Of a stretch of 24,204 bases of DNA, positions 16,601-23,566 are shown one piece after another (the stretch's first letter is position 1; every line of letters begins with the position of its first letter). Below the pieces are notes generated by a model, which saw nothing but the letters and a program-made list of their open reading frames with translations, was not told where the DNA came from and did no database searches. The DNA lies in IMG/VR virus record IMGVR_UViG_3300042294_001105, positions 1 through 24,204 of that record; one strand, given 5' to 3'. The position numbers were made by a program, and so were the translations under genes. Origin of the DNA: a virus.

Positions 16601-17698
16601 ATGAAACTCTGGACCAACCAAACCAACTCAATCCACAAAGTCGATGACTCGATGCTTTTCCCGCGCAACACCTATGTGTTGCCCGACGAGCTTACCGGAC
16701 CGATGTGGGAAGACTCCATACCCTGTCCGCACAAGATCAAGCCGTACTATCCTGGCCGCGCGACCGGCGGTGCCACGGCGGTGTACCGGGCCGGAGCGAT
16801 TGGGGATGCAATCATCACGACTGCCTTTGTGCATTATTTGGTCAACGAGTCGGGCGGGTGCGTGGATGTGTACGCACCGGCCAGGAACCTTCCGCTTTAT
16901 GCCGGGCTGGGAGCCAAGCTGTTCCCGCTTCCGCCTACGCTGGAAGCCTGGGATAGCTATGACGCGCACCTGCCGACCGACGACTTGTTCTCCGGCCAGG
17001 TTGGCAATACCAAGCTGGGTACTGGTCCGGGCAACTGCTACGACAGGATTTACACCTGGATGAATGCGGGGGACGTAGATCCAAAGTATAAACGCCCACA
17101 CCTATACCTGATCGAGCCAGACCACAAGGAACTTATGGAAATGGGCAAGTGGCCAATTAAACAGGATTATTTTGCGTATCATGTAAGTTCATCCGGCCCG
17201 ACCAGAACCTACCCGCCCAAGCAAGGACAGGAAGCCGTGCTGGCATTGCTCGAGGCTTTCCCGAACCACAAGGCCGTCATCATCGGGCTGGACAACTCCA
17301 ACAACTTCAAGGTGGATCACCCTCGCGTGATCGACCTGTTCAACACGACCAAGCAGTTCCGCTCGCTGTTCCCGATTGTAAGTGGAGCCGACTTCGTGGT
17401 TGCGCCGGACAGCAGTGTCAACCATGTGGCCGCCGCCTTCGACACGCCTTGTGTGTCGCTATGGGGCAGCTATCACCCGGACGACCGAATGACCTACTAT
17501 CCAAAGAACATTTCGGTCTTCAAGCCGGACACCTGCCCACACGCTCCGTGCCGCCCTCATGCGGGTCTACCGCAGCAGAAGTGCAAGGACGCGACAAACA
17601 AGACACCGAAGACGCAGATGTGGTGCAATGCCCTTCGCAACATCACCTCGCAGGATATTGTCGAGGCGGCGAAGAAGGCGATGGAGTTGGAGGGATAA
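16601..17698 (+). CDS. Glycosyltransferase family 9 (heptosyltransferase-like)
   Basis: A 365-residue GT-B glycosyltransferase with SD GAAAGG. N-terminal domain: 'YRAGAIGDAIITTAFVHYLV' (62-81), the GT9 'GiGDal..tp.l..L' start. C-terminal nucleotide-sugar domain: 'AVIIGLDNSNNF', then 'ISGADFVVAPDSSVNHVAAAFDTPCVSLWGSYHPDD' (about 261-295), the hallmark of ADP-heptose:LPS heptosyltransferases (D270-S-S/G, then H275). The last 60 residues add four Cys (312, 317, 328, 342), unusual for GT9 and possibly a zinc site. In bacteria the family builds LPS core. In a phage it may change a surface glycan or act with the oxygenase and GT-A enzyme. Confidence 0.75.
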   Translation: MKLWTNQTNSIHKVDDSMLFPRNTYVLPDELTGPMWEDSIPCPHKIKPYYPGRATGGATAVYRAGAIGDAIITTAFVHYLVNESGGCVDVYAPARNLPLYAGLGAKLFPLPPTLEAWDSYDAHLPTDDLFSGQVGNTKLGTGPGNCYDRIYTWMNAGDVDPKYKRPHLYLIEPDHKELMEMGKWPIKQDYFAYHVSSSGPTRTYPPKQGQEAVLALLEAFPNHKAVIIGLDNSNNFKVDHPRVIDLFNTTKQFRSLFPIVSGADFVVAPDSSVNHVAAAFDTPCVSLWGSYHPDDRMTYYPKNISVFKPDTCPHAPCRPHAGLPQQKCKDATNKTPKTQMWCNALRNITSQDIVEAAKKAMELEG

Positions 17699-17978: not shown

Positions 17979-18614
17979 ATGATGTACGACAAGCATGGCA
18001 ACCGCCCGACCAAGGGCGCAAGAAGCATCGACTACGACGACACGGTGCTGATCGCCAAGTGTGGTCCGATCAAGTTTCACCATTGGGCCAGGGAAACCGC
18101 CGACCCGGACACATGGAGCGAGCCGGAGACAGACTGGCACCTGGAATGGAAAACCCACTTCCACAAGGACAACGTGGAGAAGTCAATCGAGGTGGACGGC
18201 ATCAAGCACCGCATGGACGCGAGGATGTATGTAGGAGGGGTTCGTCATGCCATCGAGTTCCAGCACAGCCCGATCAGCGTTGAGGAGATCCAGCAACGCG
18301 AGGCTGGCTACGTCAACATGGTATGGATCTTTGACTGCATCGGCAAGGAAATGCCAAGCAATCATGTCGGGGATGGCATCATCAGGATATGGTGGAAGAG
18401 GCCGCGCACGTCTATCCTGTGGTGCAACCAGCCGGTGCTGCTGGACATTGGCGATGCTGGCGTTTACCAGCTCATTTCAATGCCTGAATATGAAAATGAT
18501 TTTTGGTATGGACGGCATTGCCACAAGCGTGAGATGATCGAGACGCTAACGAGCGGCACGTTTTCACAATCAACGAAAGCACTGGAACAACTAATCAAGG
18601 AGGGCGCGGCATGA
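17979..18614 (+). CDS. CoiA-like PD-(D/E)XK nuclease
   Basis: A 211-residue protein. The N-terminus 'MMYDKHGNRPTKGARSIDYDDTVLIAKCGPIKFHHWARE' matches the small N-terminal domain of CoiA-like proteins. The nuclease core follows: 'DPDTWSEPETDWHLEWKTHF' (Glu49..His54..Trp57-Lys58), 'HRMDARM' (Asp80), 'AIEFQHSPISVEEIQQREAGYVNMVWIFD' (Glu93-x-Gln95). This is the competence-protein CoiA-like branch of the PD-(D/E)XK fold, common in phages. No SD precedes ATG 17979; a nine-codon ATG frame (17953-17982) ends exactly over it and starts over the stop of the upstream two-frame gene, so coupling is possible. Its stop overlaps the primase ATG. Confidence 0.7.
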   Translation: MMYDKHGNRPTKGARSIDYDDTVLIAKCGPIKFHHWARETADPDTWSEPETDWHLEWKTHFHKDNVEKSIEVDGIKHRMDARMYVGGVRHAIEFQHSPISVEEIQQREAGYVNMVWIFDCIGKEMPSNHVGDGIIRIWWKRPRTSILWCNQPVLLDIGDAGVYQLISMPEYENDFWYGRHCHKREMIETLTSGTFSQSTKALEQLIKEGAA

Positions 18615-20566
18615 CGCAGGAAAAGGTGATGGATCTGATGAAATTTTTGGGGGAAGACTGCGTGCTTTTGCCCATACCTACCGGCGAGAAGAGGCCGATG
18701 GATGCAGGCTGGCAGAAGACAACCCCGGCGGCGGCAAGGAAGCCGGAGCATCTGCGCCGACTTGAGGCGGGCAACATCGGGGTGTTGCTTGGCAAGGCTG
18801 GTGGCGGGCTGTGTTCGATTGACATCGACAGCGACGAGTCTGCGGAAGAGTTTGCCAAGCTGAACCCAACCCTGACCAAAACGCTCCAGACCAAGGGAGC
18901 CAGGGGCAGGAACTTCTGGGTCAGGATTGAGGGCGAGTTTCCGCCGCTGGCCAAGATCACGGATTGGGGGGAATGGAGGAGTGACGGCGGGCAGACGGTG
19001 ATCTGGGGCAAGCACCCGACAGGTGGCAACTACAAGTGGATCGTGGTGGAGAAGCCGATCACGATCAAGTTCTCCGACATTGTGTGGCCGGACCATCTGG
19101 ACCTGCCTTGGAAGATCAAGGTGGACAATGCCTACAACGACCTAGTCGAGGAGTTTGGCAAGCCGTGGAAGGAGGTCAGGGACAAGAAGGAGCGGGAGTT
19201 CATCGTCAGCCTTAACCAACCCTTCTGGGCGGGTAAGTACCAGCACGATCACCGGGTATTGTACGAACCGCAGGAGCAGGACTTTTACGAATACGAGGGC
19301 GAGCGCGGGATATGGCGGGTCAAGTCGGAGGATGCCATCAAGCAGGAGATCAGCCGCGACATCCTGAAGTTCAGCCGCGAGCAAAACAGGCCGGAGATTG
19401 AACACATGAGATCGGACAACTCGCTGGCCGGAATCGTGCGCCAGCTTCGCGGTATCGTGGAGCATCGGGATGCCTTCACCCTGCACCGCATCCCAGGGGT
19501 GCATTGCTCCAATCGCTTCATCAAGTTCGAGGCGGGGGCAATCGAGGAGCATGAGTTCAGCCCTGACTTCTTCTCGCGCAATCAATGCCCGGTCGAGTTC
19601 AGGGGGTTGGATCTGGTGCCGGAAAGATTTTTGAATGAACTGGCCGTGCCAGCCATCCCAGATCCAGACGATCTGCTCTTGTTCCAGAAGTATCTTGGGA
19701 TGTGCCTGTTCGGGCGCAACATCATCCAGAGGTTCATGGTGCTGTACGGTCAGGCGGGTGGCGGCAAATCAACCCTGCACAACGTGGTTCACCTGCTTTC
19801 GGGCAAGGAGAACATGGCGCAGCTACGCACCCAGCACCTCGACAAGCAGTTTGAGCTTTACCGCTACCGCGCCAAGACGCTCCTGTCCGGCGTGGACGTG
19901 CCAGGGAACTTTCTGCAAATGGGCGGGGCCAAGGTCATCAAGGGGCTTACCGGAGGTGACGTGCTGGATGCGGAAGGCAAGGGGATTAACGATGGTTATC
20001 ACATCGTTGGCAACTACAACATCATCATCACGGCCAACGAGAAGCTGCGGGTCAGCCTGGAGGGGGATGTCGAGGCTTGGAGACGCAGGTTGCTTTTGCT
20101 GGAGTTCAACCAGCCACCGCCCGCAAGGAAGATCGACCGCTTTGCGGAGAAGCTGGTGGAGGAGGAAGGTCCGGCCATCCTTGCTTGGGGCTTGCGGGGC
20201 TTCCTGCTACTACAGAAAGACGTGGAAGAGACGGGCGACATCCGCCTGCCCGACTCCCAGGCCAAGCGTATCCATAACCTATTGGCAGAGTCAGAGTCGG
20301 TTGACCATTTCATCCATGACCGGGTGGACAAGGTAAAAGGATCGGATGTAACAATGGAGGAGTTTGTTCAGCTATACGGCCTGTATTGCGCCGAGAAGGG
20401 CTGGAGGCCGCTGTCCGGCTCACGCATGAGTCACCTCATCAGGGACAAGATGCTGGAGCTTCGCCAGAGCAATATCTCCAACAGCGTCAGGAAGTCCAAG
20501 AAGGGCTTCAGAAACATCCATGTGCAGGGTCAGGAGGAGGAGGGCTATGCCGATGCTGGATTCTAA
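18611..20566 (+). CDS. Primase-polymerase / SF3 helicase fusion
   Basis: A 651-residue replication protein with ATGA coupling and an AAGGAGGG SD. Residues 1-150 are an AEP prim-pol domain: 'GEKRPMDAGWQ', 'NIGVLLGKAGGGLCSIDIDSDE' (catalytic Asp71, Asp73), 'KGARGRNFWVRI', 'DGGQTVIWGKHPTGGNYKW'. Residues about 240-345 are a D5_N-like linker. Residues 370-500 are the SF3 helicase: Walker A 'LYGQAGGGKSTLHNVV' (378-393), B-like 'LLSGVDVPG' (424-432), motif C 'NIIITANEKLRVS' (Asn476), arginine finger in 'WRRRLLLLEFNQP' (490-502). A winged-helix-like tail follows ('TMEEFVQLYGLYCAEKGWRPLSGSRMSHLIRDKM'). It unwinds the origin and synthesises primers. Its 3' end encodes the polypurine SD of the next gene. 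Confidence 0.85.
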   Translation: MTQEKVMDLMKFLGEDCVLLPIPTGEKRPMDAGWQKTTPAAARKPEHLRRLEAGNIGVLLGKAGGGLCSIDIDSDESAEEFAKLNPTLTKTLQTKGARGRNFWVRIEGEFPPLAKITDWGEWRSDGGQTVIWGKHPTGGNYKWIVVEKPITIKFSDIVWPDHLDLPWKIKVDNAYNDLVEEFGKPWKEVRDKKEREFIVSLNQPFWAGKYQHDHRVLYEPQEQDFYEYEGERGIWRVKSEDAIKQEISRDILKFSREQNRPEIEHMRSDNSLAGIVRQLRGIVEHRDAFTLHRIPGVHCSNRFIKFEAGAIEEHEFSPDFFSRNQCPVEFRGLDLVPERFLNELAVPAIPDPDDLLLFQKYLGMCLFGRNIIQRFMVLYGQAGGGKSTLHNVVHLLSGKENMAQLRTQHLDKQFELYRYRAKTLLSGVDVPGNFLQMGGAKVIKGLTGGDVLDAEGKGINDGYHIVGNYNIIITANEKLRVSLEGDVEAWRRRLLLLEFNQPPPARKIDRFAEKLVEEEGPAILAWGLRGFLLLQKDVEETGDIRLPDSQAKRIHNLLAESESVDHFIHDRVDKVKGSDVTMEEFVQLYGLYCAEKGWRPLSGSRMSHLIRDKMLELRQSNISNSVRKSKKGFRNIHVQGQEEEGYADAGF

Positions 20567-22183: not shown

Positions 22184-22351
22184 CTACCGTTCGTTCTGCT
22201 CCCGCCACTTAGCCCAACGCTCCCGCTGAATGCGCGACACTTTTTCGTAATGCTCCCGCGATAGTTTTCTGGCCTTCTGCGGTCCCTTAACGCTCCCGCC
22301 CATTCGGCCTAGGCTGGAAAGATACTCTTTGATAATTTGTTCCTTGGTCAT
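22184..22351 (-). CDS. Small GG...ARkLS...RW-type protein (55 aa)
   Basis: A 55-residue minus-strand protein with a strong SD (CAGGAGC, six bases before ATG 22351). Sequence 'MTKEQIIKEYLSSLGRMGGS' then 'VKGPQKARKLSREHYEKVSRIQRERWAKWREQNER'. The motif 'G.mGGs.kg..kArkLS.e....vsr...eRWak' is common in small bacterial and phage proteins of unknown function, predicted helical and basic. Four GCGGGAGC octamers fall within and just around the gene; they mostly encode Arg-Glu. It is the last gene of the minus-strand operon. Confidence 0.65.
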   Translation of the reverse strand: MTKEQIIKEYLSSLGRMGGSVKGPQKARKLSREHYEKVSRIQRERWAKWREQNER

Positions 22352-22372
22352 AATGCTCCTGGTTAATTGCTG

Positions 22373-22417
22373 CGCTGCCGTTTATTGGTCAAATAAAATC
22401 GCCACGCTGCCGTTTAT
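22373..22417 (-). repeat. Direct repeat ATAAACGGCAGCG upstream of the 55-aa gene
   Basis: The 13-mer ATAAACGGCAGCG (minus strand) occurs at 22373-22385 and 22405-22417, 32 bases apart, close to three helical turns. A TTGACC hexamer (22387-22392) lies between them. Position upstream of the 22351 start suggests an operator pair. Degenerate AACGGYAG copies occur at 22066, 22123 and 22184. Confidence 0.6.
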
Positions 22418-22443
22418 GGGCGGATGGCGGATTAGGCGAACCG

Positions 22444-22464
22444 GCCAAGGGGTAGAACCTTGGC
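22444..22464 (-). promoter_or_regulatory. Intercistronic hairpin GCCAAGG/CCTTGGC
   Basis: A perfect seven-bp stem with a seven-base loop, eight bases after the stop of the 72-aa gene. No U-run follows on the minus strand, so it is not a classical intrinsic terminator. It may stabilise the upstream message or weakly terminate. Confidence 0.5.
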
Positions 22465-22472
22465 GGTGTGGG

Positions 22473-22691
22473 TTAACTTATCGGATCAAATGGATCATCG
22501 GTGTTTGTCACATCATAAACACAATGCAATTCAACCCCGCAATCTCCTGTTTCATAATACTTGCCGCCATTCCACTTTTCTTGAGCAAGTTTTTCAGCTT
22601 GCTTTGCGTCTTTTGCGTATAGGTCAATGACAAATGTTTCAGTTTGCTTGAACTCTATTTTATATTTTCTTTTACCTGCTTTTGCTTTCAT
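22473..22691 (-). CDS. Small phage protein, unknown (72 aa)
   Basis: Started at ATG 22691, which has a very strong SD (AAGGAGGACA); the frame is open upstream through the structured leader but without an SD. Sequence 'KYKIEFKQTETFVIDLYAKDAKQAEKLAQEKWNGGKYYETGDCGVELHCVYDV' follows the common small-protein pattern 'y.v.f..tetf.i.v.Akd..eAe.lA.e.w', a beta-alpha-beta unit seen in many phage and bacterial proteins of unknown role. The leader contains element E2. Confidence 0.6.
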   Translation of the reverse strand: MKAKAGKRKYKIEFKQTETFVIDLYAKDAKQAEKLAQEKWNGGKYYETGDCGVELHCVYDVTNTDDPFDPIS

Positions 22692-22751
22692 TGTCCTCCT
22701 TCTTTCTTTCATCCCCACCGCCAGGATTGACCCGGCTGCGGTTCCGTTTGT

Positions 22752-22816
22752 TAGGTTGATTCTATCGAATCTCACCTTTGCTTCCCCCGATTAAGGGGGA
22801 AGACAAGGGGAGACTA
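22752..22816 (-). ncRNA. Structured intergenic element E2 (covarying with E1)
   Basis: Minus-strand transcript order: AGTCT; outer stem CCTTG with CAAAGG (one bulged A); inner stem CTTCCCCC-TTAATC-GGGGGAAG (22781-22802); then hairpin GATTC-GATA-GAATC (22758-22771) and AACCTA. It starts at the stop codon of the 52-aa gene and lies in the leader of the 72-aa gene. It is homologous to E1, with base-paired double substitutions. Confidence 0.7.
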
Positions 22817-22972
22817 GTCCGCCTTCAGTAGCTTAACCAAATAGACATATGTCTTTTCCATTTCCTCATTGCTCAAGTCTAATTCGTGGGCGACATATTC
22901 CCGATAGTCTTTATCCTCAAGCGCAATTCTCGCAACTTCTTCGATAATGATTTGTCTTTCGTTCTTTTTCAT
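22814..22972 (-). CDS. Small acidic helical protein, unknown (52 aa)
   Basis: Started at ATG 22972 with an AAGGGAA-type SD; the frame is open upstream through element E1 but without an SD. The 52 residues ('MKKNERQIIIEEVARIALED', 'KDYREYVAHELDLSNEEMEKTYVYLVKLLKAD') form two or three charged helices. No family recognised. It lies between elements E1 and E2 in the minus-strand operon. Confidence 0.6.
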   Translation of the reverse strand: MKKNERQIIIEEVARIALEDKDYREYVAHELDLSNEEMEKTYVYLVKLLKAD

Positions 22973-22999
22973 AGTGCGTTCCCTTTCTTTTGTTGTTTT

Positions 23000-23064
23000 T
23001 AGGTTCGACCCTATCGGGTCTCGCCTCCGTTCCCCTCCATTACGAGGGGAAACGAGGAAAGACT
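23000..23064 (-). ncRNA. Structured intergenic element E1 (covarying with E2)
   Basis: Minus-strand order: AGTCT; outer stem CCTCG with CGGAGG (one bulged G); inner stem TTCCCCTC-GTAATG-GAGGGGAA (23030-23051); then hairpin GACCC-GATA-GGGTC (23007-23020) and AACCTA. It starts at the stop codon of the 31-aa gene and lies in the leader of the 52-aa gene. Same architecture as E2 with different stem sequences. Confidence 0.7.
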
Positions 23065-23159
23065 TATTTCCGACCGATAAACATAGCAAACGCCACCAAG
23101 ATCCCGCCCAAAATCAAACCATGGGCGAAGTAAACTGCGCCGTGGATTTCTGCGATCAT
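23064..23159 (-). CDS. Micro membrane protein (31 aa)
   Basis: ATG 23159 follows a near-perfect SD (AAAGGAGGTG). The 31 residues contain a single hydrophobic helix, 'FAHGLILGGILVAFAMFIG', after 'MIAEIHGAVY' and before 'RK'. The glycine-rich helix suggests a membrane peptide that oligomerises. The strong SD indicates high translation. No family recognised. Confidence 0.6.
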   Translation of the reverse strand: MIAEIHGAVYFAHGLILGGILVAFAMFIGRK

Positions 23160-23538: not shown

Positions 23539-23566
23539 GTGTGCGTTTCCTTTCTTTAGTTTTTGG

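Follow-up and report, generated by a model that had tools for sequence, protein, structure and literature searches.

What is the role of two RNA elements that sit one gene apart in a cluster of small phage genes, each opening at the stop codon of one gene and lying ahead of the next? The window, meaning the whole stretch of DNA analysed here, is an IMG/VR phage contig of 24,204 bases that constitutes one whole record, and both elements belong to its minus-strand small-gene cluster. In gene order, with all features on the minus strand, a 31-aa small membrane-protein-like gene (MIAEIHGAVYFAHGLILGGILVAFAMFIGRK; 23064-23159) ends in a TAA stop codon (23064-23066) that adjoins and begins element B (23000-23064). 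A short leader with a ribosome-binding site (..AAAAGAAAGGGAAC..; 22973-22999) follows and leads into a 52-aa gene between both elements (22814-22972), whose terminal TAG (22814-22816) opens element A (22752-22816). The longer leader past element A holds an extra hairpin (ACCGCAGCCGGG..CCTGGCGGT; 22717-22742), which recurs after the last element in many relatives, and downstream of it lies a 72-aa gene (MKAKAGKRKYK...; 22473-22691). The two genes beside the elements have no relatives in Pfam or PHROG. A preliminary description had placed both elements at these positions and on this strand, each opening at a stop codon, and it was correct to do so; the stems and loops that it listed, and its AGTCT and AACCTA motifs, are present as given, and the six compensated differences that it saw between A and B are real. 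Both elements fold far more stably than their dinucleotide shuffles (z of -4.4 and -3.8), with 0 of 200 shuffles folding as well.

Other features of the window deserve a brief record. Two small genes have ribosome-binding leaders (22974-22997 and 23541-23564) that form an 88% direct repeat, part of a shared AAAGAAAGG leader module. The leader (22360-22480) of the next minus-strand gene (22184-22351) contains AAACGGCAGCG twice and a CCAAGG/CCTTGG hairpin, and the AAACGGCAGCG module is also found after the element in several relatives (L031, L042, L043, and L046). A Prim-Pol/primase-helicase gene occupies 18611-20566, and the element lies in the cluster neighbouring its relatives in many, not all, contigs. 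This phage also has a glycosyltransferase family 9 (heptosyltransferase-like) gene at 16601-17698.

Each element can form a hairpin of 20 levels, here called fold 1, which begins at the base after the upstream stop codon and consists of 4 bp, a 2x2 loop, 4 bp, a second 2x2 loop, and 8 bp. The outer stem is GTCT/AGAY, the middle stem CCTY/RAGG, and the inner 2x2 loop GU/CR, followed by the 8-level inner stem and a loop of 5-9 nt. In element B, segment 1 (GTCTTTCCTCGT; 23052-23063) provides the 5′ strand of the outer and middle stems, the inner hairpin (23030-23051) has an 8-bp stem (TTCCCCTC/GAGGGGAA) and a 6-nt loop, and segment 2 (CGGAGGCGAGAC; 23018-23029) pairs with segment 1. The corresponding parts of element A are segment 1 (GTCTCCCCTTGT; 22803-22814), the first G of which is the final base of the TAG stop, an inner hairpin (CTTCCCCC/GGGGGAAG; 22781-22802) with a 6-nt loop, and segment 2 (CAAAGGTGAGAT; 22769-22780). 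The distance from stop codon to inner stem, which is segment 1, is always 12 nt. The motifs and stems of the layout proposed earlier do exist, but AGTCT is not a free motif, since GTCT pairs with AGAY; the outer stem is for this reason longer than first described, and the pairing of AGTCT with GAGAY joins it into a single fold-1 hairpin. Similarly, the supposed single bulged purine makes better sense as a 2x2 internal loop in which G-U faces C-R, given that one sister lineage carries G instead of C at this place. Fold-1 lengths (12 + 8 paired levels) are constant in all copies, across lineages of differing sequence. The outer stem occurs as GTCT/AGAC, GTTT/AAAC, GCTT/AAGC, GTCA/TGAC, GTCC/GGAT, and ACTT/AAGT, and the middle stem as CCTY/RAGG or CCAT/ATGG. 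The sequence of the inner stem and the loops vary freely, while the G-U of the inner 2x2 loop and a pyrimidine mismatch are conserved.

The family to which A and B belong is represented by approximately 148 distinct copies, spread over roughly 110 phage contigs of IMG/VR. The first relatives were obtained from IMG/VR with two sequence patterns, one per element half, together with searches by neighbouring proteins; three further patterns built on sister lineages then gave many more loci, and none of the patterns contained a stop codon. With a covariance model, each virus record yielded one or two copies, located in that small-gene cluster in every case whose context was inspected. Rfam 15 returned no match at E<=1 within the 24,204-nt window, and in 10 relatives only a hammerhead, outside the element; the suggestion of a new phage RNA family, absent from Rfam at this threshold, is supported. 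INPHARED isolated-phage DNA had no match to the element. GTDB contigs gave 62 pattern matches, of which only one had the element (L118, a 3.2-kb contig from a freshwater MAG bin that is probably viral); the others look like chance. A weak model match in a MAG relative (L282) was also discarded, being a single long hairpin at the end of a chromosomal gene, with no fold 2 of the kind described below. As for the host, the terminase of a 35-kb near-identical contig is closest to those of Akkermansia phages (38% identity; Chambord closest), from which we would hazard Verrucomicrobiota as a weak guess. Akkermansia phage Chambord itself has no copy of the element.

The main set of copies was filtered for fold-1 pairing, which flatters fold 1, and was unfiltered for fold 2. 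This concern is answered by an unbiased set chosen only by the upstream protein: loci were fetched by the 31-aa protein, and the sequence past its stop codon was read. Among 44 such loci, 29 had the element, 13 a bare short leader, one a terminator-like hairpin (L199), and one the element one gene later (L189). The 29 element loci yield 21 distinct cores in which all stem pairs are standard (336/336), compared with a mean of 290 standard pairs (sd 4.5, maximum 307) when arms are exchanged between copies. In L199, the structure that replaces the element after the 31-aa gene is a G+C-rich hairpin followed by TTTTATT, resembling an intrinsic terminator. A tree-aware covariation test, custom-written after the R-scape idea with a Fitch-count null and an APC-corrected G statistic, ranked five fold-1 pairs and one fold-2 pair as the top six of 1326 column pairs, all of them in proposed stems, with no other pair at E<=0.1. 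Furthermore, G-U cells in fold 1 outnumber A-C cells by 208 to 2, which identifies the gene-sense transcript as the molecule that folds; together with the free sequence change of the inner stem, this asymmetry led us to reject a DNA-binding palindrome. Selection on structure, initially proposed from two copies, is borne out by covariation in every variable stem of the approximately 148. Homologues with unpaired stems were looked for, and the stems stay paired; moreover, copies in different phages differ strongly with pairing kept, so that recent duplication fails as an alternative. The structure of the element is near certain.

The preliminary description listed an outer stem and a GATA hairpin; the pairing of GTCT with AGAY and the GATA hairpin share bases and cannot coexist. 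Fold 1 has a 12-base 3′ strand, and the last 9 bases of this strand double as the 5′ arm of the GATA hairpin. With an extension to AGG/CCT, this hairpin constitutes fold 2, of the form AGG(Y) .. GAYYC-GATA-GRRTC .. (A)CCT. Because of these shared bases, fold 1 and fold 2 are mutually exclusive. In element B, the last 9 bases of segment 2 alternatively pair with the downstream part of the GATA hairpin and segment 3, forming AGG..GACCC-GATA-GGGTC..CCT (23001-23026), the predicted post-cleavage 5′ end of the downstream message; in element A, segment 2 is likewise common to both folds, and the fold-2 hairpin is AGGT..GATTC-GATA-GAATC..ACCT (22753-22777). Both folds are conserved with compensatory changes. 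The basal fold-2 stem tracks its partner across lineages (AGGTC/GACCT, AGGTC/GGCCT, AGGAT/ATCCT, and TGGAT/ATTCA), and over 21 distinct segment-2/segment-3 combinations 90 of 105 basal pairs form, against 78.7±2.8 when shuffled (0 of 5000 shuffles as good). In L195, segment 2 carries T for A, and the fold-1 and fold-2 partners both show the matching change (CCAT / ATGG / ATTCA). In lineages with GTTT or GCTT, the GATA hairpin partly loses its two lower pairs, and the basal stem is longer instead. Masking segment 1 leads to fold 2 in 144 of 148 copies, as opposed to 27% with shuffled downstream letters, at a mean cost of 4.4 kcal/mol. A product beginning at AGG or TGG has a 5′-terminal stem preceded by at most one unpaired base in 53 of 53 cases. 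In two contigs (L052:4841 and L063:4958) the fold-2 loop appears inverted (CTATCG for CGATAG) with its arms kept, as if a palindrome had flipped.

An in-frame stop codon precedes 147 of the 148 copies, 121 of them without a gap. The genes around it are varied: through the element, the 31-aa gene leads to any of about a dozen different genes, and one downstream gene is found after several different upstream genes, which places the element at the joints of a mosaic. It is non-obligatory after the 31-aa gene, given its absence at that junction in 13 of 44 relatives; among the records inspected of those relatives, it is present after the next gene. Scans of the leaders called no intrinsic terminator at A or B, where the hairpins are followed by AACCTA and no U-run, and found no promoter site of the sigma-70 type, the type scanned for. 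The ribosome-binding site of the next gene lies 15-60 nt beyond the element and is hidden by neither fold. Type II hammerhead ribozymes (RF02276, 45 bits) occur in two relatives, both of which have the element as well; at L189:2405-2465 and L190:1340-1400 they lie between a stop codon and the AAAGAAAGG leader, approximately 600 nt upstream of the 31-aa gene.

From these properties we infer how the element works. It is most likely an intercistronic site where a multi-gene mRNA is cut or where expression switches from one gene to another. Of the two structures, fold 1 is usually the more stable, and its transcription is completed first; fold 2 can therefore form only once segment 1 is taken away or covered. 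Cleavage by RNase III and cover by a ribosome are the two explanations that use all of the evidence, and we favour the former, namely that the element is a cis-acting intercistronic site for RNase III-type cleavage, after which the downstream product refolds with a hairpin at its 5′ end, a proposal that we put at slightly short of an even chance. Fold 1 would arise first during transcription, and host RNase III, as it does in the T7 early region, would cut it close to the inner 2x2 loop. The inner hairpin would stay on the upstream message as a 3′-end barrier, and the downstream message, having lost segment 1, would refold and thereby enclose its 5′ end in the fold-2 hairpin, a closure that would protect it against 5′-end-dependent decay. 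By these steps, small genes that lie side by side on one transcript would have their fates uncoupled by the element. Cleavage is preferred because a self-cleaving RNA, the hammerhead, occurs in the equivalent slot, because size and layout are T7-like, and because the AGG/TGG product has a 5′-terminal hairpin. Against it, T7 sites are not locked to a stop codon, a pure cleavage site has no obvious need for position-by-position conservation of fold 2, and the junction after the same gene lacks the element in the 13 relatives noted above.

A ribosome-gated switch is a serious rival. A terminating ribosome would cover approximately 12 nt, which is segment 1, and leave the RNA to adopt fold 2; without upstream translation fold 1 would form, and the choice of fold would control the expression of the next gene or the fate of its message. 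The near-invariable stop codon at the element edge and the constant 12 nt of segment 1 are better accounted for in this way than by cleavage, and the fine balance between the folds, seen in the masking cost, and covariation in both of them also fit. However, neither fold hides the next ribosome-binding site, there is no U-run for an attenuator terminator, and the upstream genes are varied with no conserved stalling codons, so that we regard such gating as possible but doubtful. The same doubt attaches to its corollary, that the element is a bistable RNA switch of a class new for phages, with a ribosome terminating over exactly 12 nt choosing the fold and thereby setting the processing or expression of the next gene. 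The mosaic of genes raises a different idea, that the element mainly offers shared homology for shuffling small genes between phages, as proposed for the PeSLs of T4-like phages. The many partners of the 31-aa gene, the recurrence of one downstream gene after different upstream genes, and the recombined haplotypes of the two element halves would all suit such a cassette, but homology alone would keep neither pairing amid sequence change nor two overlapping folds, and the G-U/A-C asymmetry shows selection at the RNA level. We consider this unlikely, and gene shuffling is likely a consequence of the element and not its selected function.

A phage or host RNA-binding protein, acting as repressor or stabiliser, might instead recognise the hairpin and its conserved internal loops; conservation of the G-U in the inner 2x2 loop and of the pyrimidine mismatch is in keeping with this, as are several copies across operons. 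Fold 2, the stop-codon lock, and the free turnover of the inner-stem sequence would then go unexplained, and no candidate binder was identified, which makes a protein site quite improbable. The hammerhead in the equivalent slot of two relatives, together with the strict length constraints, might even suggest a new self-cleaving ribozyme, but, apart from a few bases of the internal loops, the element has no conserved unpaired catalytic core, its loops vary freely, and we give this very little credence. The preliminary description had offered an attenuator, a processing site, or a protein-binding site; these remain rivals, but the constant place at the stop codon, two folds that overlap, and a hammerhead in an equivalent slot narrow the range to processing or a translation-gated switch, with RNase III-type processing the reading that we favour.

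The element is a well-supported structured RNA family without an Rfam entry, spread over roughly 110 contigs of phages. Selection acts on two folds that overlap, which is unusual among intercistronic elements. Through it, one can test directly how compact phages keep the expression of co-transcribed small genes apart. Moreover, the presence of a hammerhead in an equivalent slot hints that phages of this group may in general resort to cutting RNA between cistrons.

Several known systems share some of these properties. The promoter early stem-loops (PeSLs) of T4-like phages are promoter-terminator motifs according to a passage in PMC4503421 (citing Arbiol 2010 and Comeau 2014). Like the element, they are intergenic stem-loop modules at junctions of shuffled small genes, whereas the leaders described here contain no promoter recognised by a sigma-70-type scan and no recognised terminator, and selection acts on two RNA folds. 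The extended start-associated sequences (ESAS) of cluster K mycobacteriophages are likewise imperfect inverted repeats that recur before many small genes within a single group of phages, with little support for mRNA hairpins according to their authors (PMC3203893). In contrast to ESAS, which mark a gene start, the element marks a stop codon and keeps pairing in every stem; the ESAS hallmark, 17-bp imperfect inverted repeats upstream of a 13-bp SAS at the start codon, is absent here. An integron attC-like site (GTTRRRY / RYYYAAC boxes) was rejected by eye, as the ends AGTCT and AACCTA are not complementary and B has no GTTRRRY box, and an intrinsic terminator was rejected for want of a U-run after the hairpins. 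By the features tested, the element is not an intrinsic terminator, PeSL, ESAS, or attC site. The type II hammerhead (RF02276) resembles it in position, with a stop codon on one side and the same AAAGAAAGG leader on the other in L189 and L190, but the element has neither a hammerhead core nor an Rfam match. In ribosome-controlled attenuators, such as the trp, tnaC, and erm leaders, one strand is common to two exclusive hairpins, and a ribosome can cover the competing strand. The element too has two mutually exclusive hairpins with a shared strand, but no leader peptide, intrinsic terminator, or hidden ribosome-binding site. RNase III cuts double-stranded RNA and targets T7 transcripts (PMC5371410). 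The element shares with T7 RNase III sites an intercistronic hairpin of about two helical turns (~20 bp) with an internal loop, downstream of a stop codon and with no U-run; it differs in its stop-codon lock, in sequence, and in host, and cleavage in the present phages is a prediction. The T7 intercistronic regions that we folded, which we take to be RNase III sites, are stem-internal loop-stem hairpins, one of them beginning at a stop codon. We know of no conserved alternative fold at T7 RNase III sites. By analogy, the element would appear to work most like a T7 RNase III site combined with the shared strand of an attenuator.
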